Source of the DNA: a virus
Direction: 5' to 3' (one strand)
IMG/VR virus record: IMGVR_UViG_3300020438_000136
Coordinates: 1-33,625 of that record
DNA: 33,625 bases
Positions 345-17,759 of the stretch are shown in pieces. The notes below the pieces were generated by a model. It had not been told where the DNA came from. It ran no database searches and saw only the letters and a program-made list of their open reading frames with translations. Made by a program: the position numbers and the translations under genes. Numbering within the stretch: position 1 is the first letter of the stretch; every line of letters starts with the position of its first letter.

Positions 345-378
345 TTTTCCACAGATAGCAAGTCTAATCTGTGGAAAA
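345..378. repeat. Perfect 12-bp inverted repeat of two DnaA-box-like sites
   Basis: TTTTCCACAGAT at 345-356 is repeated in inverted orientation as ATCTGTGGAAAA at 367-378, around a 10-base spacer. Each arm contains a complete TTTTCCACA motif. No T-run follows on either side, so it does not look like an intrinsic terminator. A protein-binding dyad is more likely. Confidence 0.75.
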
Positions 379-443
379 GTATTATTAATTGGGTTTAAAA
401 TGGTCTTATAAATATAGTTTGCTCTTTTATACTTTTCCACAAA

Positions 444-485
444 GGTGTTAATAAAGGGGTGTTAATATGTGGAGAAGGTGTTAAT
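444..485 (+). repeat. Three direct repeats GGTGTTAAT
   Basis: Identical 9-mers start at 444, 458 and 477, so they are spaced 14 and 19 bases apart. They alternate with DnaA-box-like motifs at 433-441 and 468-476. They could be binding sites for a phage-encoded protein. The number of copies is small and function is inferred only from the arrangement. Confidence 0.5.
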
Positions 486-635
486 TAGTAGAGATATTGT
501 GTGGATAAAGTATCATTCTTGTAGTGATCTTAGCGAGCAGTTTATCACACTTTGCCTCTTAAGTCTACCCCGCCGAAATAATATTTAACAGACACACAGT
601 TTATGTTAACAAACCGCAATATTACACAGTGGTTA

Positions 636-665
636 TTGACATTATGCGTGTAAATCTGTTATAAT
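636..665 (+). promoter_or_regulatory. Sigma70-type promoter P1
   Basis: A consensus -35 box TTGACA (636-641) and a consensus -10 box TATAAT (660-665) are separated by 18 bases. Initiation would fall near 672, just upstream of a DnaA-box-like motif (675-683) and the small ORF starting at 695. Such host-type promoters normally drive early genes in T4-like phages. The motif ATTACACAGT lies just upstream (621-630). Confidence 0.75.
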
Positions 666-694
666 AAAGTATAGTTTTCCACAACGTATTTCTG

Positions 695-853
695 ATGTCT
701 TATGCACACTTAGTAGGCACACAGAAAGCTTATACAATCACACTGAATCTGTCAGTCGAAAATGACTTTAATGCACGGCAAATTGACTTCGCTAAAGTAT
801 TCGAATTAAACGAATATGAACACTGTGATGTATACATTGAGGAAGTAAATTAG
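695..853 (+). CDS. Small hypothetical protein, probably early (52 aa)
   Basis: The ORF runs from ATG at 695 to TAG at 851-853. The product begins MSYAHLVGTQKAYTITLNLS and ends in an acidic tail (CDVYIEEVN). There is no membrane segment or recognised domain. The start lies about 23 bases after the predicted start point of the consensus promoter at 636-665, which supports early expression from a short leader. No strong Shine-Dalgarno sequence is visible, and a DnaA-box-like motif (675-683) occupies the leader, so DnaA or another factor could influence expression. It stands alone between two non-coding regions. The function is unknown. It could be one of the many small host-takeover proteins of T4-like phages, but nothing in the sequence shows that. 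Confidence 0.6.
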   Translation: MSYAHLVGTQKAYTITLNLSVENDFNARQIDFAKVFELNEYEHCDVYIEEVN

Positions 854-877: not shown

Positions 878-906
878 TAACACAGTTCTTGACAGTTACT
901 GTGTTA
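878..906. promoter_or_regulatory. 9-bp dyad over a -35 box; candidate operator
   Basis: TAACACAGT (878-886) and ACTGTGTTA (898-906) form a perfect inverted repeat with an 11-base centre that contains the TTGACA at 889-894. A dimeric repressor bound here would cover the -35 box. The half-site ACACAGT also occurs at 339, 594, 624 and 1443. Confidence 0.55.
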
Positions 907-917
907 TATTATAGAAT
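889..917 (+). promoter_or_regulatory. Sigma70-type promoter P2
   Basis: TTGACA (889-894) is followed after 17 bases by TAGAAT (912-917), a one-mismatch -10 box. The predicted start is near 924. The next credible gene begins at 1182, so the transcript has a long leader. Other -10-like hexamers nearby (905-912) have spacers that are too short. Confidence 0.65.
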
Positions 918-1010: not shown

Positions 1011-1075
1011 GGTTAGGGGCGTTATGTTATATTGGGGGCGGCGGGCGTGTCTAAAAAAAGCAAGAGACCCTAACC
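1011..1075 (+). ncRNA. Possible structured RNA element in the P2 leader
   Basis: GGTTAGGG (1011-1018) can pair perfectly with CCCTAACC (1068-1075). The enclosed segment is G-rich and contains a smaller GTCT/AGAC pairing (1049-1052 with 1065-1068). It lies in the untranslated leader between promoter P2 and the gene at 1182. It matches no riboswitch that I can recognise. The long loop makes this tentative. Confidence 0.25.
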
Positions 1076-1181
1076 TACAGAGGTGACAAATCGAGAGAGA
1101 GATATCAATATAAAAAAAAATTCCCATGGCCAAAAACCGCCTTATTACTTCTTTCATACATAAAAAAATCCACGAGGGCTA

Positions 1182-1449: not shown

Positions 1450-2217
1450 ATGGCTAAAGGATTCAAAGTAAAAACGGTTGCACCAAAAACCCAAGAACCA
1501 ACATGGGATATTGATGCAATCAAAGCAAGAATGAAAGGTAAAGCAATAGTCTTCTGTTTACCAGGCAGAGGATGTTCTTATATCTTTTTAAAGAACTTTG
1601 TTCAACTATGTTTCGACATGGTTCAGAACGGAATGAGTATACAGATCTCACAAGATTACTCATCTATGGTAAACTTTGCACGTTGTAAGGTTCTCGGTGC
1701 AAATGTATTACGTGGCCCAAAACAGATACCTTGGGATGGTAAACTTACATATGACTATCAGTTATGGATTGACTCAGACATAGTGTTTGATACTAACAAG
1801 TTCTGGCAGTTATGCGATCTATCACTTGATAAAGACGGTAATGAGAAAGAGATTGCTGCTGGATGGTATGCTACAGAGGATGGGTCTACCACTTCTATTG
1901 CTCACTGGTTGGAAGAAGACGACTTCCGTAAGAACGGTGGTGTTATGAACCACGAAACCGTTGAGACAATGAGTAAGAGGAAGAAACCTTTCACATGTGA
2001 CTATACAGGTTTTGGATGGGTATTGATTAAGAATGGTGTATTTGAGAAACTTGAGTATCCTTGGTTTGCTCCTAAGATGCAAATCTTTGAATCGGGTGAG
2101 GTTCAAGATATGTGTGGAGAAGACGTATCGTTCTGTTTAGATGCACAGGATTGTGGTTATGATATTTGGGCCGACCCTCGTATTCGTGTAGGCCACGAAA
2201 AAACTCGTGTAATTTAA
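1450..2217 (+). CDS. Glycosyltransferase-like protein (GT-A type, 255 aa)
   Basis: The protein resembles GT-A-fold glycosyltransferases found in many tailed phages. The early LPGRGCSY segment (about residues 38-45) fits the nucleotide-sugar binding first strand. SSMVNFARCKVLG (about 71-83) fits the usual helix with R/N contacts. WIDSDIVFD (about 106-114) holds the DxD metal and sugar-nucleotide motif. GFGWVLI (about 188-194) and CGEDVSFC (about 218-225) match the acceptor loop and the catalytic acidic region, and the end ADPRIRVGHEK carries the terminal His common in these enzymes. There is no signal or membrane segment, so it is cytoplasmic. The sugar and acceptor cannot be told: modified phage DNA, virion proteins or host glycans are all possible. 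A perfect sigma70 promoter lies directly upstream, suggesting early expression. The Shine-Dalgarno sequence is weak. Confidence 0.75.
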   Translation: MAKGFKVKTVAPKTQEPTWDIDAIKARMKGKAIVFCLPGRGCSYIFLKNFVQLCFDMVQNGMSIQISQDYSSMVNFARCKVLGANVLRGPKQIPWDGKLTYDYQLWIDSDIVFDTNKFWQLCDLSLDKDGNEKEIAAGWYATEDGSTTSIAHWLEEDDFRKNGGVMNHETVETMSKRKKPFTCDYTGFGWVLIKNGVFEKLEYPWFAPKMQIFESGEVQDMCGEDVSFCLDAQDCGYDIWADPRIRVGHEKTRVI

Positions 2218-5093: not shown

Positions 5094-8000
5094 ATGACAG
5101 AAAAAAGAGTTCAAATTAATAAGGTCGTAAAAGACCAACTACCTGGTTATGTCAAGGATGATAGCCCATTAGTTGGTGAATTTTTAAGTGCGTATTATCA
5201 AGGGCAAGAGTATCAAGGCGGCCCAATCGATATTATCAATAATTTAGACACGTATATACAATTAAACAAGTCAGGTAATTTGGTGGGGTTCACGACCCTT
5301 ATGAACCCCGTAGGGGAGTTTGATACAGAGATTAGTGTTAAGAGCACACAAGGGTTCCCTGATAACTATGGTTTATTAAAAATCAATGATGAGATAATAA
5401 CATATACTGGAATTGGAACTACTGCATTTACTGGTTGTGTTCGTGGATTTAGTGGAATTACATCATTTACTAATCCTGATGAACCTGAAGAATTCCTTTT
5501 CAATAATTCTAATGCAGCTGCACATCCTGTTGGTGTAGGAACTTCTGGTGGAATTGTAGAAAACTTAAGTATTTTATTCTTACGTGAGTTTTTAAAGAAG
5601 TCTAAAAAGCAATTTTTACCAGGATTTCAGAAAGATTTAAACACTTCTTTAAATCAACCACAATTTATTCGTCATTCTAAAGACTTTTATAATTCAAGGG
5701 GAACGGATGAATCCTTTAAAATCCTCTTTAAATCTCTTTACAATGAAGAAGTAGATGTTATTAGACCTGCTGATTATGTAATATCACCATCAGATGCAAA
5801 TTACAAGAAAACTCGTGATCTTATTGTAGAACCAATTCAAGGAGATCCTGCAGATTTAGAGAATAAGACACTTTTCCAAGATGCATTTGAAAATATTAGT
5901 AGAGCATATGCACCCGTATCAATGGTTGAAAGGATCAGAGTTGGTCTTTTAACTGATACTTATTTTAAAGTTAGTATTGATGATTCATTTGGAACGGGTG
6001 GAAGTAACGAATTATTATATGGTAGTTTTAAAGTTCATTCAAATACTAGAGCAGTTGGTATTGTTGGAGCTGCACAAACTTATATTGATGTTGATTCAAC
6101 TGTAGGATTCCCTAATTTTGGTGCTTTAACATTTAAATATAAAAATGGCACTACTGGAATAGCAACATATTCTTCAACTAATACTACTCAGTTCTTAGGT
6201 GTTAGTGGAATTACAACAACAATTAAAGATACTACATTAATTAAGCAAAACACATATGCATATGCTTTAGGTAAGGCAGACGCTACTGCTGGTGTTGCAA
6301 CAGATGGAATTAAGGTTAGAATTACTAGTGTTCTGAATGATGTAGAACTTCCAAATACTTTCTATCAGAGAAAGGGTTCTAAGATCAAATTAAAGTCATT
6401 AGGAAAGGTTGCACACGTTGATGATTTCAAGTCTAAAAACTGGATTTTCAATATTCAACCAAAATATGATATTGAGTCAATTACAGTTCAGGATGCAAGT
6501 AACAATACCTATGAAGTAACCACTAAAGACTTCCATAGAATACGTCTAGGAGACGTTACAACGATCCAAACGAACAATGCCACCCTAGACGGTGGATACA
6601 GCGTTACAGACGTTATTAGCAGCACTGTGGTAAGAGTTAGAGGAGCTGTAATAAGTAGTCTTTCTGCCGTTGTATCGATAACAAAAACATTAAGTAAACC
6701 AAACTGTGATGGAACTGATGTTGCAACAAATCATCAACATTTAAACATCTATGATGCGAATGTTCAAAACATTTACATGCAAGAAGTTGGATATGCACAT
6801 ACTTTATCTACAATAAAGAATTTAGTATCATCTAACTCCATTCCAACATTTTCAGATACTAATTTAAATCCAAGCACTCAGAAAATTAATCTTTCTGGAA
6901 CATTTAACGGTGGAGATATTATTATTGGTATTACTACTGGAACTAAAGATCATAATTTCTTTACTGGTGATGCAATTTACTATACACCACAAAAAGCTGC
7001 TAATGGAACAGTATCGAGTTTCCTCTTTAGTGAGGGATTATATTTTATTGAAAGAATTAACTCAAATGATATAAAATTAGCAAAATCTGTATCTAACTTA
7101 TATGATGGAAATTATCAGAAGATATCAGAAACCACTGTTCAAACTACAATCACAAATAATACGTTTGAAAAGTATGATTTCCATAATAAGCAGATTTTAC
7201 CTCAAAGTCTTCTTAGAGAATTTGATATACCTGTATATGATGGAAAAGAATACTCTACAAATATTGGATATAATGGTTTATTGATTAATGGTGTTGAAGT
7301 TTTAAGTTATAAGTCAAAAAATCTTGTATATTATGGAGATATTAAATCTATAGACGTTACTGGTGGTGGAAGATATTATGATGTTATTAATCCACCAGTT
7401 TTAGCTGTTAATGATGGTGTAGGTGTTGGTGCAACTGGATATGTTTCAACAAGAGGTAATTTCCAAGAAATTAGAATCTTAGATCCAGGTTTTGACTATG
7501 TTGAGGCTCCAACAATATCAATTAGTGGTGGAAATGGAACAGGTGCTAAAGCAGAATGTAAATTAGTTACAGTTCCACATGAAGTTGCGTTTAATGCTGG
7601 TTCTGGATCTCAAACTATAGCAATAACTAGTGATGATGATTATAATGTAGGATTTTTAACTTACCATAAGTTTAGAAATCATGAAAGAGTTGTTTATGAT
7701 ACAAAAGGGGAAAAATCATTAGCTGGTTTAGATACTGGTGCAACATATTATATTAATACTGATCAAAGATATGGTGCAACTGGTTTAACTACAATAACAA
7801 GTTGGACTGGTTATGCTGGAACAAGTTGGTATAATAATAAGACCTTAAGATTACATAGAAACTTAGATGATGCAGTTATTGGTGTTAATACTATATCATT
7901 TACTGGGTTTGGTGAAGGAAACCATGTATTCAGATCTTTAAATGGTAAAGCACAGGTAGGTAGTATTAATGTATTGGATTCTGGTGATGGTTATGAGAAT

Positions 8001-11000
8001 AAACTAAAGACTTGCGAACCAACTGGTATTAATACTGCACTTGATAGAATTACTATTGGTAATCATGATTATAAAACTGGAGAAATTATTAAATATAGCA
8101 CTGATCCTGTAGGAACAGCAATTCAAGGTCTTTCTACAGATAAAGAATATTATGTTTATGTTATAGATGAGAATACTTTTAAATTATCCACTGTTGGAGT
8201 TGGAACAACTGCAAAAGATTTTTATTTCAGAACTAAGCAATATGAAAATTTAAGATCAGTTGGTGTAGCAACTCATAGTTTCAACTATCCACCTATTGAA
8301 ATAAAAGTGGAAGGAATAGTTGGTATAAGTTCAATTGAAGGTAATGAATTTCAATGCATCCCTCAACCGCTTGTTAGAGGAGAAGTTACTTCCGTTCACC
8401 TAACAAATACTGGTGTTGGATATGGTGCTTCTGAAATTATGAATTTCAACAGGCAACCAAGAATTGACATGTATACTGGAAGAAATTGTGAATTACTTCC
8501 AATCGTTGCTAATGGTCAGATTATTGACGTTGCTATTAATAATAGAGGTGATTCGTATAATACTCCTCCTGCAATATCTATTGCTGGTGTGGGAACAGGT
8601 GCTAAATTGGTTCCTGAGATTGTTGGTGGGCAAGTTAGATCTGTTAAGATTATTCAAAGAGGTATTGGATATGGTCAATCTACTACAGCACTAACTGTAG
8701 AGGCAGCTGGTGAATTTGCTATTTTCCAATCAAATTTAAATACATGGCAAGTAAATGAAGTTCAAAAGAATTATAATAACATAGATGATTCGGATGTATT
8801 CATTGCTAAACCAACTCAACTAAGTCGTGGTTTACAGTGTTCTCATGCATACGCACCAAGAACTCTGAGAAAGATGGTCTATCAGAATGATGCTGAAGGT
8901 AATGCATTATATGGTGATAGAGATCTTACTCTTCTTAATGGCCAGACAGAAGAAAATAAAACAAGGCACTCTCCTATTATAGGGTGGGCATATGATGGTC
9001 TTCCAATTTATGGCCCTTATGGTTATGAAAAGAGCACTGGTGGTAATATAACCCAAATTAGATCTGGTTATTCAATCGACTTAAAAGCAAATAGACCTCC
9101 TACTAGTATTTTCCCACAAGAATTTTTCTTAGAAGATTTTACATGGAATACAAATACTGATGAGAAATATCTTGATGCTAATAATGGAAGATTTGGTATA
9201 ACTCCAGAATATCCAAAAGGAACATATGCATACTTTGCTACATTTGATACTACACCATTATCTGAGTCTGGTGATCCATTTAATGGATTTAAGAAACCTG
9301 CATTCCCTTATTTAATTGGTGACAAGTATTGGGCTCAACCAAATCAATTTAATAACTTATCTAAGAATAATCAAGATACGATTGACTTAAATGATACAAA
9401 ATGGGTTAGAAATACTGAACCATACGAACTACTACAAGATGATAGTTCATATGACTATCTAAAACAATCTTATAACTTTATTACACAAGAAGGTGAGATT
9501 GTATATGCTTCAGAGGGTTCTGTAGAAAAAGTTGGAATTGTTACTGGTGGATCAAGTTATAGAAATGATGATAAGGTTGTATTTGAAGAAAAAGTAGCTG
9601 ATAATTTTCAAACAGTTGCAAAAGTCTCTAAAGTTGTAGGGCCTGGAATTGGAACTATTGCTGTTACTAATACTAAGTTGTTTAATATTGAATTTTATCC
9701 AAGTAATGCAAATAGAGAGTTTATTGGTGTTCATACAACTCCAATTGGATTGCAAAATGGCGATAAAGTTTATGTTTCTGGAATGTCAACAACCGCATCG
9801 GGTCTTGGCAATAGAACCTATAGTATTGGTATATCATCAGCAAGACTTATAATTTCGCAAGGTATTGGAACTATAGGTGCAACTGGTTTAGTTACTTACT
9901 TTAATGTTGTTGGTAAATTACCTGCACCTAATGATTCTCTTAATAGAATTGCTTTAAGGGAAAATGATATTATTAAGGTTGGTTTAGGTACTATGCAGGA
10001 GGAAGTTAAAATCCTCAATATAGAATCTGGATCAAGAAGATTAAGAGTTTTAAGACAACAGAATAGCACTTCGGGTGTTGCTCATACTATTAGAACTGTT
10101 GTTGAAGAAAGACCTAGAGTATTCAGAATTGATGCTGGATTTACAACTTCATTTGAAGGTCTGGTTGATCAGGAGTATTATTTCAATCCAGTAGAAGCAG
10201 TTGGTATGGGAACCACTGCTGGGCCTGGTATTGGAACCACAGTTGCTTTCCAGAATCCAGGATCTGGTCTTACTCAGAAATTTATTCCAGCAAGATCAAT
10301 ATATCTTCCTAATCATAAGTTGAATACTGGTGATAGTGTAACTTATAATAGAAATACTGGTAATTCTATTGGGGTAGCGACTAATCGTGCAAATGCCTCA
10401 TTTACATCACCATCAATAAATCTTCCAGAAGGGGTACCATTATTTGTAGCAAGACTCAATCAAGATATGATTGGTTTATCAACTGTTAAAGTTGGTCTTG
10501 GAACAATCGGTGCAGATCCAGAAGATATTTACGTTGGTATTGCGGAAACAACTAAAAACCAAGGATTGCTATATTTTACTGGCATCGGAACTGGTGTATA
10601 CCATAGTTTAAAAGCAACATACTCTGAAACTGTAAAAGGTGCAGCAGAGAAAAATAAAATAGTTGTATCTACTGCAAATACTCATGGATTACGCCATAAT
10701 GATCAGGTTTATCTTACAGTTGATTCTGGTATTACAACTACTGTTCCAATCAAATATAATAAGGAAAATAGAAAAGTTATTGCTAGAACATTAACATTTG
10801 AAGCAACTGGTATTACAACTGCTACTGCAGAATCAGGTATACCAAATGCTATTGAGATTTTAGATCATGAAATGCAAACTGGTCAAAGAGTTGTTCATAC
10901 ATCATCCTCTCCTGCTGGTGGTTTATTAAATGAAGAAGAATATTTTGTTTATGTTATCAATAAAGATAAAATTCAATTATGTGGAAGTAGATTCCAATTA

Positions 11001-14000
11001 AGACAACCTAGACCAGCATTTGTAGGTATATTAACTGCCAGTGGTGGTGGAACACTTAATTTGGTTAATCCACCTTTGGAGTTCTATAAGAATGGAACTG
11101 TAACCTTTGATTTATCAGATTCTTCTCTATCATATACAGAAGTTGCAGATACTTTACCTGGTTTTGAATTTAAACTTTATAGTGATTATAATTTTGTTCA
11201 TGAATATGATGCAAATAATTTAGAAACAACATTTGAAGTAACTAGAAGTGGAACTGTTGGTATTGATGGTAAAGTGATTCTTAAAGTTAATCAATATACA
11301 CCAAAAATCCTTTATTATAACTTAGTTCCAACTACACAAGATAATAACCCAGATGTGAATAAAGAATTGGTATTGGATAAAGGAATTGAAGGAAATAATA
11401 CTATTTCAACAAAAGAAAGTCGTTATGCTGGAAACTATAAGGTTCTTGCAAATTCTGATAATACATTTACATATGATTTAGATAGATATCCAGAAGTTCC
11501 TTCATATACTGCTTCTGCAACAACAAAATTAAATTACGAAACAACTTCTAAGACTGCTTATGGGCCTATTGCAAATGTTGCCTTGGCAGATAAAGGAAAA
11601 GGATATACTAGATTACCTGGTATTACTACAGTCACCTCTGATGCGGGAACAGGTGCTATTCTAGAGGCATCAAGTAACTCTATTGGTGTTCCTAAGACTA
11701 CAAAGATTAATAATATTGGATTTGATTATCCTTCTGATTTTACTTTAAGACCTCAATCTAAACTACCACAAATTATTAAGATTTCAGCACTATCTGGTTT
11801 TGAGTCTATTGGTATTACTTCATATGGTAAAGGATATAATACTCCACCAGCACTTGTTGTTCTTGATGGTGTTGATAGAAGAAAGATTGATGATGTTGAA
11901 TTAAGATACAATTTAACAACTCCTGATGCACCAGGTTATGTTGATATTGTTCAAAACACTTATGGATTATCTAACGTAACACCATTTATTGTTCCTGTTA
12001 ACAATCCAAACGGAATTAGAGCTAAAGATTTTGAATATGATTCAGCGACTGATACTGTTTCTTGTGTTATGAAGACTGCATATAGTCTTCAAGAAGAATT
12101 TCCACTTAAAATTGGTGATAAAGTCTTTATTGAAAATGTTAGTGTTGGTGTTGGATCTACTGGTACTGGATATGATTCTCAATATTATGATTATCAATCA
12201 TTTGAGATAACAAAGGTTCATGAAAACTTAGGTAACGTTGGTGTTGTAACATATAGTCTTGGTGGTTTATTACCTTCTGGAGAAATTCCTGGTAATTATG
12301 TTGATGCACTATCATCTGGCGTATTGGTTCAATCTAAGAACTTCCCACAATTTGCTCCAGTTTTAAGACCTAACATCTTTAACGCTAATGAGACTCTTAG
12401 ATCAGAAACTAGTGTTGGCCCAGTTCAGGGTGTTGCATTTGAATATGATCCTGAAAGTAAGTGGTTAACTGTAGAAGCAGCAAGTGACTTTGAAGTTGGT
12501 AAACTGATAGAATCTTTAGAAACTGGTGCTAAAGGAACTGTTTCGGAAATTGTTCTTACATTTGATACCAATTTCAGTCTTGATTACTATTCAATTGTTG
12601 ATAATGGATGGGAATACCAAACAGGATTCTTAAATGATAGTTTACAGAAAATTCACGATAATGACTATTATCAGAGTTTCTCATATGCTATTAAATCTAA
12701 AGTATTCTTTGATAAGTGGAAGGATATTGTTAATTCATTAACTCACACTGCTGGATTTAAAAAATTCAGTCAACTTCAGGTTGAATCTGCTCTTCCTGCT
12801 GGTCAAGAGAGTTCAATGGTTGTTGGATTAGCAGGAACTGTTACTGGTATTATTAATATACAAAATTATGAGAGTGTTCATGAGTATAACAACTTTGACT
12901 TAGTTACGGAGAATATTCTTGACGCTTCTCCTGCAGAAGGTAATTTCTCTGATGAGATTACTTTCCAAAATAGAATTCTAATTGATTATGCTGAATCTGT
13001 CGGAAACAGAGTTTTAAAAATTGATGATATTAGTGATAAATTCAACAGTAATCCAAGACCTACACCTTGGTCTGAGGTTGCTAGGTATGACATTTCTAAT
13101 AACAAAGAGAATAGATTTATTGTTTATGTAAGAGATAGATTATTTACTGGAGAAAGGCAAATAATGATGGTTAACTCATTATTTGATCCAGTTAGTGGTC
13201 AATCAATGATTAACCAGTATGGATCTGTTGATACTCAGATTCAACTAGGTCAAATGGATAGTGTTGTTGATGGAACAGATGCTGTTCTTCAATTCCACCC
13301 AGTTAAGTCAGAGAAGAATAATTATAATGTTATTACCATGTCATATAACCTTGATGAATTGGGTTTAACTACTTCATTGACTGCTATTGGTAAAACAACT
13401 ATCGGTGAATCAACTGCACCTCCAAGCCCACTAGTTGCCATCGGTGTTTCAAATGTTATTGGTTATGGTGGATCAGAAGTTAAGATATGCACAGTTGGAA
13501 CAGCATCTACTACAGGAACTGCATTAACAAGTATTCCTGGTGTAGCAGGTGTTGGAACAGCACAATATGATCTATACAATCCTAGATCTGCAAAGATTAT
13601 TGTTTCTATTGCTACAAGTGAAGGTTCAGTTGAATATGATGAATTGAGTCTAATTGTTGGTACTGGAATGACTTCTTTTGAATTCCATGAGTATGGTCAA
13701 TTAGCAATACACAATAGAAGAGATAATCTTGCTGCACAACCATTAGGAACATTTAGACCATATATTGTTGGAGTAGGAACTACTGCTGCTGTAGAAGTTG
13801 GTTACACACCTAATGCTGGTATTGGAACTGCATGGATAAACACAATTACGATTGGTATTTCTTCAGAGACATTTACTGGAATTGGAACATATGATCTAAG
13901 AAATGCATCAATGATCGCTAAGTCAACCACAATTGCAGCTGCTAGTTCTCCTGCCACTGTAGGAATTGCTAGCTATGTTAACGATTATGATGGGGCATAT

Positions 14001-17000
14001 TGTATAGTTCAGATTGTAGATGAGACTAATGACATATATGAATTTGCAGAAGTAATGATGGTTGATGATGATAATAGAGTGTTCCTTACTGAATATGGAA
14101 ATTTAAGAACTGGTCTTGGTGCAACTGATTCACTAGGAACAATAGGTGGTTCTAGAGATACTGATGGATGTCGCACAGAATTGACATTTACTCCAAAATC
14201 AAATGTAGGGGTTAAAATTAAGACATTTATTAATGCACTTAGAGTTGAAGAAAACTCTTCTGAACCAGAATTAATTGAATTGAATAGTGGTTCTATTAGA
14301 AGTAGTTTTGATGTATATGAAGGAACATTCTATGGTGCAAGAACAGAATTTGATTGTTTACATAATGGAAATGAGATATTCAGAAAGAATTTTGATGGAA
14401 CAAGTACTGATGTTGTTAGTCTTACCAATGATACTATAGATCTTCCAAATCATTACTTTGTAAGTGGTGAAGAAGTAGTTTATTCAGTTAAAGCAGCAAT
14501 TAGTGGATGTTCTACAACAGGTATAGGAACCACTGGAGATGCGATTGGAATTGCTGCCACTTACTTTGCAGGTATTGGAGCAACCATTACATACTTACCT
14601 GAAAGTGTATTTGTATTTAAGAAAAGTGATAGTCAAATTCAACTTTGCAGATCTGCACAAGATGCACTAGTAACTCCAGTAAAACCAATAAATCTAACAT
14701 CAGTTGGTATTGGAACTTCTCATAGTATTACTGCTAAGTATGGAACTGAGAATGTTAGATCATTAATAGCGATTGATAATATGATTCAATCACCAATCGT
14801 TAATAGTGGTATAGCAGCATCATTATCACAACGTTTTGATAGAACAGAAGATATAGCTTACTTCACGGGAATAACGTCATTCCATAGTGGGGATGATATA
14901 AGAATTGGAGATGAAATAATGAAAGTTGTTGCAGTTGGCCCTACGGCTGGTGCTGCTAATGCTGTTAAAGTTAATCGTCATTGGATGGGAACTACTCTTG
15001 TAGGTCATGCTTCACATGCACCAATCAATAAACTTAGTGGTGACTTTAATATTATCAATAATACTTTATCATTCTCTGTTGCTCCATTTGGTGGAGAACC
15101 TCCTGTAGGATACTCAACTGCTACTCCTAATAATAGAGATTGGGTTGGTATTACAACTTACTCAAGTTTCAGTGGAAGAGTCTTTACTCGTTCTGGTGTT
15201 AAGGGATCTGATTATGATGCATATACTACAAATTATTTGATTGATAATCTTTCACCACAATTTGATGGTCAAGAAACGCAATTTGACCTTAAAGTTAATA
15301 AAGGAAATGTAACTGGTATTTCAACTCAGAATGGTTTACTTTTAATTAATGGTATATTACAAGGTGCTGGAAACTTTAATGATTATGAATTATCTGAAGT
15401 TTCTGGTATTACATCCATGACATTTACAGGTGCTGCTGCTTCTGTTGCATATGATCCAGAAACTGCATCTGTTCCTGTTAGTGGTAGAATAATTTCTGTC
15501 GGATCTACTGAAGGATTTGGATTACAACCATTAGTTGGTGCTGGTGCAACTATTCGATTTACTTCTTCTGGTATTGTTACTGCAGTAAGTATTGGTAATA
15601 GTGGTTCTGGATATAGAGTAATTCCTGGTCGTGCTGGTATTGCATCCAATTCTTCTATAAGTGGTGTTGGTATTGCTACTGAAGTTAAAGTTGGTGTTGC
15701 ATTATCATCTACTGGAACTCCATCAATTCAATATATTGGAACTGCTTCTGTAATTAATGGTGGTATCGTAAGTATTGCTGTTACAAACACTGATCCAATT
15801 CCAGGATTCCCTGGCACAGGGTCTTCTACGTTCGAAGCAATCATTGATCCTCCAACTCCTTATCAAGATATTCCACTTTGGTATAGTTCTTCTACACCAG
15901 GTGTTGGTGGAACTCAAGCAAGAGCTAATATTACAGTTAGTGCGGGATCAAGTGTAATTGACTTTGAGATTACTAATGTTGGTTATTCTTATGGAGAATC
16001 TCAAATATTAACAGTTCCTACCTCTCTTACAACTAGCGAACCATCAATTGTAGGTATCCCTACAGTTCAAGGTGGAACATTTAGAGAATTCCAGTTAACT
16101 ATTGAAAGAATTAAAGATGATGAGTTTAACATGTGGACTCTTGGAGAACTTGATGTTCTTGATGACTTCTCTAATCTATTTGATGGTGCTAGAAAAGCAT
16201 TCCCAATTACAGTTGGTGGTGATGGATATGCTATCCAAGCAAAAACTGGATCACCGATTGTCATTCAAGATACTCTAATTCTTACAATTAATGATGTTCT
16301 ACAAGTTCCTGGTGAAGGATTTACCTTTAGTGGTGGTGGAACAATAACCTTTAGTGAAGCACCTAAATCAGGTGATGTAATGAGATTCTTCTTCTATAGA
16401 GGAACTGGTGGTGAAGATGTAAAAGATAGAGATATTGTAGAAACAGTTAAACGTGGTGATGATTTAGTTCTTAAATATGATTCTGCATATAACACAAGAA
16501 CATTTGTAGAAAATGAAAGAACAGTTGTTGAAGTTAAATCTTCAGACCAAGTTGATACTAACCCATACTATGGTCTTGGTTTAGGTGATGATGATACTGA
16601 AGTAAGACCTGTAACATGGATTAAACAGACTGAAGATAAGATTATTGATGGTAGAGTTGTTCGTAAGGATAGACCTTTACAAGAACCTGCTATTCAACCA
16701 ACTGCATATTTAATTCAAACAGTTGGTGTGGGATCTACTACAATATGGGTAGATAACTGTAAACCATTCTTTGATCAAGAAAATGAAAACCCTGTTGATA
16801 GAGAATTCCAGAAAGATATTTTAATAGTAAATGCCAGTGCTCAGTATGATTACCTTGCAGGTGCTGCTGGAACGGCAATAGTTTCCATTGGTAATACAAT
16901 CTCATCTGTTGCTATTTCAACGGGTGGTAGGGGATATACAATCGCTCCTACGGTAAGTATCCAAACTCCTACTGGCGTAGGTGGAACTCCTCTCGCTGGT

Positions 17001-17759
17001 GTAGGCACTACTGCTAGAGCATTTGCTTCTGCATCAATCACTGCTGGTGTTGTTACATCAATTACTATTACTACTGCTGGTATTGCATATACCGCAGGTA
17101 AAGCACCACAAGTTCTAATTTCTCCACCAACATATATTAGAGAGGAAAATACTCTTGATTCTTATTCAGGAGATTTTGGAGTTGTGACTGGTGTTGGTAT
17201 ATGTTCAAATATATCTGACGCAAATGGAACAGCGATTGGGGTAGGAACTGCTGTAGTATTTGATCTTTGGATTCCTGATGAATCTGCTCTAAGAGATAGT
17301 AAGATTACAAGCCCTGATCCAATTTCAGTAAGTGGATTGCAAACAGGCTACTACTTTACTGTTAGCGGTTCCAATCTAGGTTCTGGTGTTACATCTGTAA
17401 ATATGGCAGGAACATATGTCGGTGTTGGAACAACTGCACTAGATAATATATACGAAGTCTCACATTATGTTGGAATAACCACAGTTGGATATGGATCTGA
17501 TAAGACTAACAGTTCACTAAGAGTCTTTAGTAGAGTGTTAAGTTGGAATGGTCTAGAGAATACTGTAGGATATTCAACCTTAAATCAAGGGATTAGTACC
17601 GCATTTATAGGTGACTATAGTTGGGGTAGACTTCAATCACGAGGTAGGATGATTTCTACTTCATATTCCGTGAATACAAACAACGGTGTTGTTGGAATTA
17701 AGACTGGTCCACAGATTAAGAGAAAAGCACCATTGAAGTTTGTAAATTATGTCGTCTAA
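5094..17759 (+). CDS. gp7: Giant baseplate wedge protein in the gp7 position (4221 aa) with YHYH-like domain
   Basis: The protein lies between gp6 and gp8, where T4 has gp7, the baseplate wedge initiator (1032 residues), but is about four times longer. The first roughly 250 residues look like the cyanophage gp7 N-terminus, with an IgG-like module at about 77-124 (FPDNYGLLKINDEIITYTG...RGFSG). A YHYH-like domain covers about residues 1255-1400, including HSPIIGWAYDGLPIYGP from 1292 and NGRFGITPEYPKGTYAYFAT up to about 1382. About thirteen GxGY beta repeats are scattered, for example near 750, 800, 1100, 1150, 1185, 2165, 2240, 3500 and 3940. Another repeat has the pattern H-x-tGd-V-x-Y...YFVYVIN-x-DKIQL. 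Near the C-terminus, LILTINDVLQVPGEGF and FSEAPKSGDVMRFFFY match a common phage module. There is no frameshift over 12.7 kb. Assignment as gp7 rests on position and the N-terminus. The other modules may act in host recognition. Confidence 0.75.
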   Translation: MTEKRVQINKVVKDQLPGYVKDDSPLVGEFLSAYYQGQEYQGGPIDIINNLDTYIQLNKSGNLVGFTTLMNPVGEFDTEISVKSTQGFPDNYGLLKINDEIITYTGIGTTAFTGCVRGFSGITSFTNPDEPEEFLFNNSNAAAHPVGVGTSGGIVENLSILFLREFLKKSKKQFLPGFQKDLNTSLNQPQFIRHSKDFYNSRGTDESFKILFKSLYNEEVDVIRPADYVISPSDANYKKTRDLIVEPIQGDPADLENKTLFQDAFENISRAYAPVSMVERIRVGLLTDTYFKVSIDDSFGTGGSNELLYGSFKVHSNTRAVGIVGAAQTYIDVDSTVGFPNFGALTFKYKNGTTGIATYSSTNTTQFLGVSGITTTIKDTTLIKQNTYAYALGKADATAGVATDGIKVRITSVLNDVELPNTFYQRKGSKIKLKSLGKVAHVDDFKSKNWIFNIQPKYDIESITVQDASNNTYEVTTKDFHRIRLGDVTTIQTNNATLDGGYSVTDVISSTVVRVRGAVISSLSAVVSITKTLSKPNCDGTDVATNHQHLNIYDANVQNIYMQEVGYAHTLSTIKNLVSSNSIPTFSDTNLNPSTQKINLSGTFNGGDIIIGITTGTKDHNFFTGDAIYYTPQKAANGTVSSFLFSEGLYFIERINSNDIKLAKSVSNLYDGNYQKISETTVQTTITNNTFEKYDFHNKQILPQSLLREFDIPVYDGKEYSTNIGYNGLLINGVEVLSYKSKNLVYYGDIKSIDVTGGGRYYDVINPPVLAVNDGVGVGATGYVSTRGNFQEIRILDPGFDYVEAPTISISGGNGTGAKAECKLVTVPHEVAFNAGSGSQTIAITSDDDYNVGFLTYHKFRNHERVVYDTKGEKSLAGLDTGATYYINTDQRYGATGLTTITSWTGYAGTSWYNNKTLRLHRNLDDAVIGVNTISFTGFGEGNHVFRSLNGKAQVGSINVLDSGDGYENKLKTCEPTGINTALDRITIGNHDYKTGEIIKYSTDPVGTAIQGLSTDKEYYVYVIDENTFKLSTVGVGTTAKDFYFRTKQYENLRSVGVATHSFNYPPIEIKVEGIVGISSIEGNEFQCIPQPLVRGEVTSVHLTNTGVGYGASEIMNFNRQPRIDMYTGRNCELLPIVANGQIIDVAINNRGDSYNTPPAISIAGVGTGAKLVPEIVGGQVRSVKIIQRGIGYGQSTTALTVEAAGEFAIFQSNLNTWQVNEVQKNYNNIDDSDVFIAKPTQLSRGLQCSHAYAPRTLRKMVYQNDAEGNALYGDRDLTLLNGQTEENKTRHSPIIGWAYDGLPIYGPYGYEKSTGGNITQIRSGYSIDLKANRPPTSIFPQEFFLEDFTWNTNTDEKYLDANNGRFGITPEYPKGTYAYFATFDTTPLSESGDPFNGFKKPAFPYLIGDKYWAQPNQFNNLSKNNQDTIDLNDTKWVRNTEPYELLQDDSSYDYLKQSYNFITQEGEIVYASEGSVEKVGIVTGGSSYRNDDKVVFEEKVADNFQTVAKVSKVVGPGIGTIAVTNTKLFNIEFYPSNANREFIGVHTTPIGLQNGDKVYVSGMSTTASGLGNRTYSIGISSARLIISQGIGTIGATGLVTYFNVVGKLPAPNDSLNRIALRENDIIKVGLGTMQEEVKILNIESGSRRLRVLRQQNSTSGVAHTIRTVVEERPRVFRIDAGFTTSFEGLVDQEYYFNPVEAVGMGTTAGPGIGTTVAFQNPGSGLTQKFIPARSIYLPNHKLNTGDSVTYNRNTGNSIGVATNRANASFTSPSINLPEGVPLFVARLNQDMIGLSTVKVGLGTIGADPEDIYVGIAETTKNQGLLYFTGIGTGVYHSLKATYSETVKGAAEKNKIVVSTANTHGLRHNDQVYLTVDSGITTTVPIKYNKENRKVIARTLTFEATGITTATAESGIPNAIEILDHEMQTGQRVVHTSSSPAGGLLNEEEYFVYVINKDKIQLCGSRFQLRQPRPAFVGILTASGGGTLNLVNPPLEFYKNGTVTFDLSDSSLSYTEVADTLPGFEFKLYSDYNFVHEYDANNLETTFEVTRSGTVGIDGKVILKVNQYTPKILYYNLVPTTQDNNPDVNKELVLDKGIEGNNTISTKESRYAGNYKVLANSDNTFTYDLDRYPEVPSYTASATTKLNYETTSKTAYGPIANVALADKGKGYTRLPGITTVTSDAGTGAILEASSNSIGVPKTTKINNIGFDYPSDFTLRPQSKLPQIIKISALSGFESIGITSYGKGYNTPPALVVLDGVDRRKIDDVELRYNLTTPDAPGYVDIVQNTYGLSNVTPFIVPVNNPNGIRAKDFEYDSATDTVSCVMKTAYSLQEEFPLKIGDKVFIENVSVGVGSTGTGYDSQYYDYQSFEITKVHENLGNVGVVTYSLGGLLPSGEIPGNYVDALSSGVLVQSKNFPQFAPVLRPNIFNANETLRSETSVGPVQGVAFEYDPESKWLTVEAASDFEVGKLIESLETGAKGTVSEIVLTFDTNFSLDYYSIVDNGWEYQTGFLNDSLQKIHDNDYYQSFSYAIKSKVFFDKWKDIVNSLTHTAGFKKFSQLQVESALPAGQESSMVVGLAGTVTGIINIQNYESVHEYNNFDLVTENILDASPAEGNFSDEITFQNRILIDYAESVGNRVLKIDDISDKFNSNPRPTPWSEVARYDISNNKENRFIVYVRDRLFTGERQIMMVNSLFDPVSGQSMINQYGSVDTQIQLGQMDSVVDGTDAVLQFHPVKSEKNNYNVITMSYNLDELGLTTSLTAIGKTTIGESTAPPSPLVAIGVSNVIGYGGSEVKICTVGTASTTGTALTSIPGVAGVGTAQYDLYNPRSAKIIVSIATSEGSVEYDELSLIVGTGMTSFEFHEYGQLAIHNRRDNLAAQPLGTFRPYIVGVGTTAAVEVGYTPNAGIGTAWINTITIGISSETFTGIGTYDLRNASMIAKSTTIAAASSPATVGIASYVNDYDGAYCIVQIVDETNDIYEFAEVMMVDDDNRVFLTEYGNLRTGLGATDSLGTIGGSRDTDGCRTELTFTPKSNVGVKIKTFINALRVEENSSEPELIELNSGSIRSSFDVYEGTFYGARTEFDCLHNGNEIFRKNFDGTSTDVVSLTNDTIDLPNHYFVSGEEVVYSVKAAISGCSTTGIGTTGDAIGIAATYFAGIGATITYLPESVFVFKKSDSQIQLCRSAQDALVTPVKPINLTSVGIGTSHSITAKYGTENVRSLIAIDNMIQSPIVNSGIAASLSQRFDRTEDIAYFTGITSFHSGDDIRIGDEIMKVVAVGPTAGAANAVKVNRHWMGTTLVGHASHAPINKLSGDFNIINNTLSFSVAPFGGEPPVGYSTATPNNRDWVGITTYSSFSGRVFTRSGVKGSDYDAYTTNYLIDNLSPQFDGQETQFDLKVNKGNVTGISTQNGLLLINGILQGAGNFNDYELSEVSGITSMTFTGAAASVAYDPETASVPVSGRIISVGSTEGFGLQPLVGAGATIRFTSSGIVTAVSIGNSGSGYRVIPGRAGIASNSSISGVGIATEVKVGVALSSTGTPSIQYIGTASVINGGIVSIAVTNTDPIPGFPGTGSSTFEAIIDPPTPYQDIPLWYSSSTPGVGGTQARANITVSAGSSVIDFEITNVGYSYGESQILTVPTSLTTSEPSIVGIPTVQGGTFREFQLTIERIKDDEFNMWTLGELDVLDDFSNLFDGARKAFPITVGGDGYAIQAKTGSPIVIQDTLILTINDVLQVPGEGFTFSGGGTITFSEAPKSGDVMRFFFYRGTGGEDVKDRDIVETVKRGDDLVLKYDSAYNTRTFVENERTVVEVKSSDQVDTNPYYGLGLGDDDTEVRPVTWIKQTEDKIIDGRVVRKDRPLQEPAIQPTAYLIQTVGVGSTTIWVDNCKPFFDQENENPVDREFQKDILIVNASAQYDYLAGAAGTAIVSIGNTISSVAISTGGRGYTIAPTVSIQTPTGVGGTPLAGVGTTARAFASASITAGVVTSITITTAGIAYTAGKAPQVLISPPTYIREENTLDSYSGDFGVVTGVGICSNISDANGTAIGVGTAVVFDLWIPDESALRDSKITSPDPISVSGLQTGYYFTVSGSNLGSGVTSVNMAGTYVGVGTTALDNIYEVSHYVGITTVGYGSDKTNSSLRVFSRVLSWNGLENTVGYSTLNQGISTAFIGDYSWGRLQSRGRMISTSYSVNTNNGVVGIKTGPQIKRKAPLKFVNYVV

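Follow-up and report, generated by a model that had tools for sequence, protein, structure and literature searches.

A conserved cluster of host-type DnaA boxes upstream of gene 25 in T4-like cyanophages as a candidate replication origin

Introduction

T4-like cyanophages belong to the most abundant viruses of the ocean. The replication origins of T4 use middle promoters and R-loops and not DnaA. The datA locus of E. coli serves as a DnaA titration site. In cyanophages, T4 middle genes are reported to be controlled without motA/asi, and those of S-PM2 and Syn9 are treated as being under the control of early and late promoters that overlap (PMC2984593). Thus, T4-type middle-promoter origins may be unavailable to cyanophages. 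For Syn9, a single theta origin has been predicted, unlike in T4, and no mechanism was given (review PMC2984593 citing Weigele et al. 2007). Apart from this prediction, an established account of replication start in T4-like cyanophages was not found in the literature searched. In cyanobacteria, TTTTCCACA is the DnaA box and dnaN is the usual neighbour of oriC (PMC4674748). Arrays of DnaA boxes are well known; for a family-wide, position-fixed array in T4-like phages no report was found in the literature searched. Likewise, DnaA boxes in T4-like cyanophages were not the subject of any paper found in the full-text literature searched, and a word search of the comparative paper PMC3037559 found neither "DnaA" nor "origin of replication".

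The box cluster in the window

The window, that is, the whole stretch of 33,625 nucleotides that was analysed, is a 33.6-kb virus fragment (IMGVR_UViG_3300020438_000136) that comes from a T4-like cyanophage and carries its baseplate module from gene 25 to gene 6. The closest named relative in this region is Synechococcus phage S-SM2, which agrees with the initial annotation of the DNA as belonging to a T4-like phage. Downstream of gene 6, positions 5094-17759 are occupied by a single ORF of 4221 aa, the product of which is probably a very large protein of the baseplate or of a fibre. From left to right, the locus has the following features:

345..353, + strand: DnaA box 1, TTTTCCACA, exact match
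370..378, - strand: DnaA box 2, TTTTCCACA, exact match, 25 bp from box 1
407..414, + strand: TATAAATA, late-promoter-like by sequence, inside an A+T-rich stretch
433..441, + strand: DnaA box 3, TTTTCCACA, exact match, kept in the relatives L008 and L016
444..485, + strand: three GGTGTTAAT repeats around the near-box (444-452, 458-466, 477-485)
468..476, - strand: near-match box, TTCTCCACA, not exact
500..508, - strand: DnaA box, TTATCCACA, exact TTWTCCACA
521..550, + strand: dyad element GTAGTGATCTTAGCGAGCAGTTTATCACAC (GTGAT...ATCAC), kept in 38 loci
636..665, + strand: sigma-70 promoter TTGACA-18-TATAAT, 12/12 consensus matches
675..683, + strand: DnaA box, TTTTCCACA, exact match, at the expected transcription start
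695..853, + strand: small ORF, 52 aa, PHROG 12516, a family of unknown function
889..917, + strand: second sigma-70-like promoter by sequence, TTGACA-17-TAGAAT
1069..1088, + strand: non-coding conserved 20-mer CCTAACCTACAGAGGTGACA, an anchor independent of the boxes

The initial annotation had described four TTTTCCACA motifs, one TTATCCACA and one near match (TTCTCCACA) in about 340 non-coding bases, with no perfect copy in the rest of the window. All of them were found at 345-683, and the five exact TTWTCCACA sites are the only ones in the 33.6 kb. The reading of TTTTCCACA as the cyanobacterial DnaA box was also in line with the literature (PMC4674748). The count against shuffled sequence that had been proposed as a check gave a mean of 1.35 sites per whole window in dinucleotide shuffles, compared with the five observed, all of which are clustered. 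About 0.014 sites are expected per 339 bp, and the scan-corrected Poisson probability is ~4e-10. One-mismatch copies occur at chance level across the window (29 observed, 29.4 expected) and the signal of the cluster therefore resides in the exact copies. Since the boxes lie between two small ORFs (114-290, 58 aa; 695-853, 52 aa), the stretch is non-coding, short chance frames aside. Neither Rfam nor a tRNA scan gave a match in the window.

The convergent pair 345/370 is kept in the relatives L008, L041 and L016 and in AG-345-O18, a marine virus contig derived from a single cell that has the same layout as the window. The late-promoter-like TATAAATA matches the pattern of the late promoter NATAAATA (PMC2984593), and a ATAAATATA block is invariant there across four relatives. 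The A+T content is slightly raised beside the boxes (74% at 370-449, 62-71% nearby). Units similar to the repeats around the near-box, consisting of a box and GTGTT, are spaced 21 bp apart in S-SM2. A hairpin near 1069 (GGGTTAGGG/CCCTAACC) was dropped from consideration because its 5' half is not conserved in relatives.

Conservation of the position among relatives

The window being a fragment and not a complete genome, the genome-wide density of the motif was assessed in relatives. A first set comprised 80 IMG/VR relatives retrieved via the neighbouring gene (window 1450-2217), two phages and the window itself. In this set, 53 exact boxes are present in ~125 kb upstream of the neighbouring gene and one in ~425 kb downstream. 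In 10 of 21 complete genomes (S-SM2, S-ShM2, Syn30, ACG-2014d, ACG-2014b, S-RIM44, S-RIM2, P-TIM68, S-SKS1 and Syn9), two boxes lie within ~300 bp of each other at a distance of 2-9 kb before gene 25. The remaining 11 of the 21 complete genomes lack an exact box pair before gene 25, and DnaA would therefore be dispensable or replaced in them. Thus, the expectation that relatives keep the motifs at this locus holds for the fixed position before gene 25 and fails for about half of the complete relatives, which are without boxes. No pattern of boxes with the named host was visible by eye.

In an unguided test, all 9-mers were ranked by how widely they cluster in the 10 kb preceding gene 25 of 11 cyanophage genomes. 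TTTTCCACA ranked first, being clustered in 8 of the 11, and it was clustered in none of 185 other 10-kb windows; a comparable density elsewhere, which would have spoken against the initial annotation, was thus not observed. Moreover, at loci picked by the 20-mer CCTAACCTACAGAGGTGACA, 79 boxes were counted within 1.5 kb upstream, compared with 4 within 5 kb downstream. At these loci TTTTCCACA by itself occurs 74 times; for 300 permuted 9-mers the median count was 1 and the highest 12. Of the 45 loci with full 1.5-kb flanks, 14 contain a box, and in 13 of the 14 there are at least two, which means that box presence per locus is close to all or none. A cluster produced by chance in A+T-rich non-coding DNA would be in keeping with the frequency of single exact boxes in whole phage genomes, where they are about as rare as a reversed control. 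However, the clustering before gene 25, the counts at the 20-mer and the Poisson estimate oppose this explanation, which was rejected because the position is conserved and to which we assign a practically negligible probability.

IMG/VR was also scanned for convergent box pairs without regard to their neighbourhood. The scan retrieved at least 119 stretches; among these matches listed, 85 encode Kyanoviridae proteins, 54 hold gene 25, and the 34 contigs without Kyanoviridae matches vary widely in G+C content. A gene for Kyano_Gp96 (PF23790), a protein of 113-115 aa and unknown function, accompanies the box locus in 45 of the 119 stretches among the matches listed, for instance at L131:13398-13736 and L006:2403-2747. 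Altogether, many marine T4-like cyanophages carry a DnaA-box cluster once per genome at a common position.

Likeness to host DnaA-box arrays

Boxes that share an orientation mostly start 11-12, 20-22, 31, 42 and 52-53 bp from each other, and convergent pairs are mostly separated by 14, 23-25 and 34-35 bp. Among 80 redundancy-reduced spacers, a 10.5-bp periodicity is apparent (R = 0.59), for which the p-value is indicative only because of shared ancestry. The flanks of the phage boxes are also biased, A-G being preferred before and G after the box (A-G-TTTTCCACA-G). In public cyanobacterial genomes, TTTTCCACA clusters have flanks and spacings equal to the phage ones, though the clusters were picked by a three-box pattern and spacings up to 39 bp were thus partly selected. 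Such a cluster is located within ~1.5 kb of dnaN in 7 of 17 of these genomes, and same-strand box pairs are present in 162 of the 194 genomes sampled from the class. The smallest, picocyanobacteria-sized genomes, which judging by size are probably of the hosts' kind, are mostly without exact same-strand pairs. Several small genomes of this size mix exact and one-mismatch boxes before dnaN, and the phage boxes have the exact consensus.

The phage array therefore has in common with the cyanobacterial oriC beside dnaN the box sequence, the extended context, the 11/21/31/42-bp spacing, the mixed orientations and the non-coding location. In contrast to oriC, it is found in a virus, adjoins neither dnaN nor dnaA, has no GC-skew minimum, is coupled to a sigma-70 promoter and is absent from about half of the relatives. 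A phage-encoded DnaA as the reader was discarded: the DNA-binding domain IV of DnaA was not found in 20 complete phage genomes, and host DnaA is thus the candidate reader. The strong resemblance in sequence indicates that host DnaA probably binds the array.

The exactness of the phage boxes, given the mixture of exact and one-mismatch boxes before dnaN in several small picocyanobacteria-sized genomes, would also suit a sink that ties up host DnaA, thereby stopping initiation at the host chromosome or favouring the phage. Like the array, datA is a DnaA-box cluster away from oriC. However, the cyanophage array is promoter-linked and phased, and titration, which is here a candidate function only, needs neither phasing nor a fixed position next to a promoter. 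Furthermore, four to six sites per genome is a small number unless many phage copies are present. We therefore judge a sink to be improbable.

A regulatory core with possibly exchangeable repeats

By a search allowing up to four mismatches over 18 bases, the dyad element was located in 38 loci; 17 of them carry one or more exact boxes, and 12 carry two or more. The element (GTAGTGATCTTAGCGAGCNNTNTATCACAC) is usually followed by a sigma-70 promoter at a near-constant distance of ~115-125 bp. Dyad and promoter are conserved more widely than the boxes; for instance, Bellamy and SynMITS9220M01 have kept both and are devoid of boxes. The 20-mer CCTAACCTACAGAGGTGACA is non-coding, occurs essentially once per Kyanoviridae genome (71 relatives) and has a sigma-70-like promoter of its own and a TATATAAAAA tract in front of it. 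It has no Rfam match, and its sequence was not found in the literature searched.

In box-less loci, a different sequence, TTGAGAAT, recurs within 1.5 kb upstream of the 20-mer; this applies to 10 of 49 loci, and downstream it applies to none. The box-less locus L543 has six TTGAGAAT copies at 22-25 bp, ~1.2-1.4 kb upstream of the 20-mer. Repeats of the TTGAGAAT/ATTCTCAA type at this spacing in L543 were also seen in L497, L570 and L036; their half-site resembles cyanobacterial Fur-type sites. Direct repeats at 21-25 bp, such as the box-GTGTT units of S-SM2 and the TTGAGAAT copies of L543, are also a feature shared with the iteron origins of plasmids and phages, from which the cyanophage locus differs in that no linked initiator gene was recognised.

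The presence of TTGAGAAT at the same place in box-less relatives implies that the array there can be read by something else. By extension, another phage or host protein might read the repeats in the window, their sequence coinciding with that of DnaA boxes. However, the flanks and the spacing closely fit cyanobacterial DnaA clusters, and such a reader is quite improbable. Because box-less loci repeat TTGAGAAT and the core is kept without boxes, these few loci suggest that a more stable regulatory core may carry an exchangeable binding array, of which the boxes would be one version. We tentatively propose that the Kyanoviridae origin is modular, with a fixed core (dyad, sigma-70 promoter and CCTAACCTACAGAGGTGACA) and an exchangeable array of either host-DnaA boxes or iterons like TTGAGAAT. 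If so, T4-like phages would have replaced the T4 middle-promoter origins by recruiting host DnaA.

Candidate replication origin or promoter switch

With medium confidence, we consider this Kyanoviridae region to be a host-DnaA binding array and most likely a replication origin or part of one. The reading is supported by the clustering, the fixed position, the helical phasing, the host-like context, the promoter and dyad element conserved beside the array, the lack of a DnaA domain in 20 relatives and the theta origin predicted for Syn9, a phage with the box pair. In the proposed mechanism, the phased consensus boxes would be occupied by host DnaA, which would help to open the A+T-rich stretch next to them. 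Transcription from the adjacent downstream sigma-70 promoter could assist unwinding or priming, after which the phage helicase and polymerase would take over. Since a box overlaps the promoter, bound DnaA could also time it. Binding, opening and replication start at the array are inferred.

A cumulative GC-skew analysis, also suggested initially, went against an origin: cumulative GC and AT skew of complete genomes gave it no support, and the GC skew neither reaches a minimum at the locus nor turns there with the right sign. At third codon positions the skew has a step, which is of the wrong sign, and effects of gene strand and gene content dominate. Moreover, a DnaA-trio motif after the box was not detected (mean 1.21, compared with 1.20 in shuffles). 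The missing skew minimum and DnaA-trio, the merely slight rise in A+T content and the box-less half of the relatives weaken the origin reading. The initial proposal of an unusual DnaA-type origin or DnaA-responsive switch is partly supported: the oriC-like spacing and context favour it, and the GC skew and the box-less relatives do not.

The locus resembles ori(uvsY)/oriF of T4 in that it lies near gene 25 of a T4-like phage and has a promoter adjoining an A+T-rich stretch. However, uvsY follows gene 25 in the T4-like control and the cyanophage array precedes gene 25, and equating the two by synteny was rejected because they are on opposite sides of gene 25. Syn9, a member of the same phage family, has a box pair at 52565/52589, and the present locus may therefore be the origin predicted for this phage, which lowers its novelty.

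Alternatively, host DnaA could repress or activate the sigma-70 promoter at 636-665 with no replication start at this site, so that early phage transcription would respond to the host cell cycle. This explanation ranks next after the origin, since several lineages have a box on or beside the promoter: in the window, box 675 overlaps with the expected start of transcription, the corresponding box of L008 falls within the promoter spacer, and S-ShM2 has two boxes directly before the ORF. The wider conservation of promoter and dyad also fits. However, the majority of the boxes are 130-300 bp away on the upstream side of the promoter, multi-box phased arrays are closer to oriC than to an operator, and the driven gene (52 aa, unknown function) varies between lineages. 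A promoter switch without an origin is therefore rather unlikely, though origin and DnaA-responsive switch are both possible and not mutually exclusive.

Conclusions

One short conserved locus of the host-DnaA type can now be offered for direct testing. Its sequence suggests that cyanophages may borrow host DnaA to start copying or to switch on their DNA. If true, the start of phage replication or transcription would be linked to the cell-cycle state of the host.
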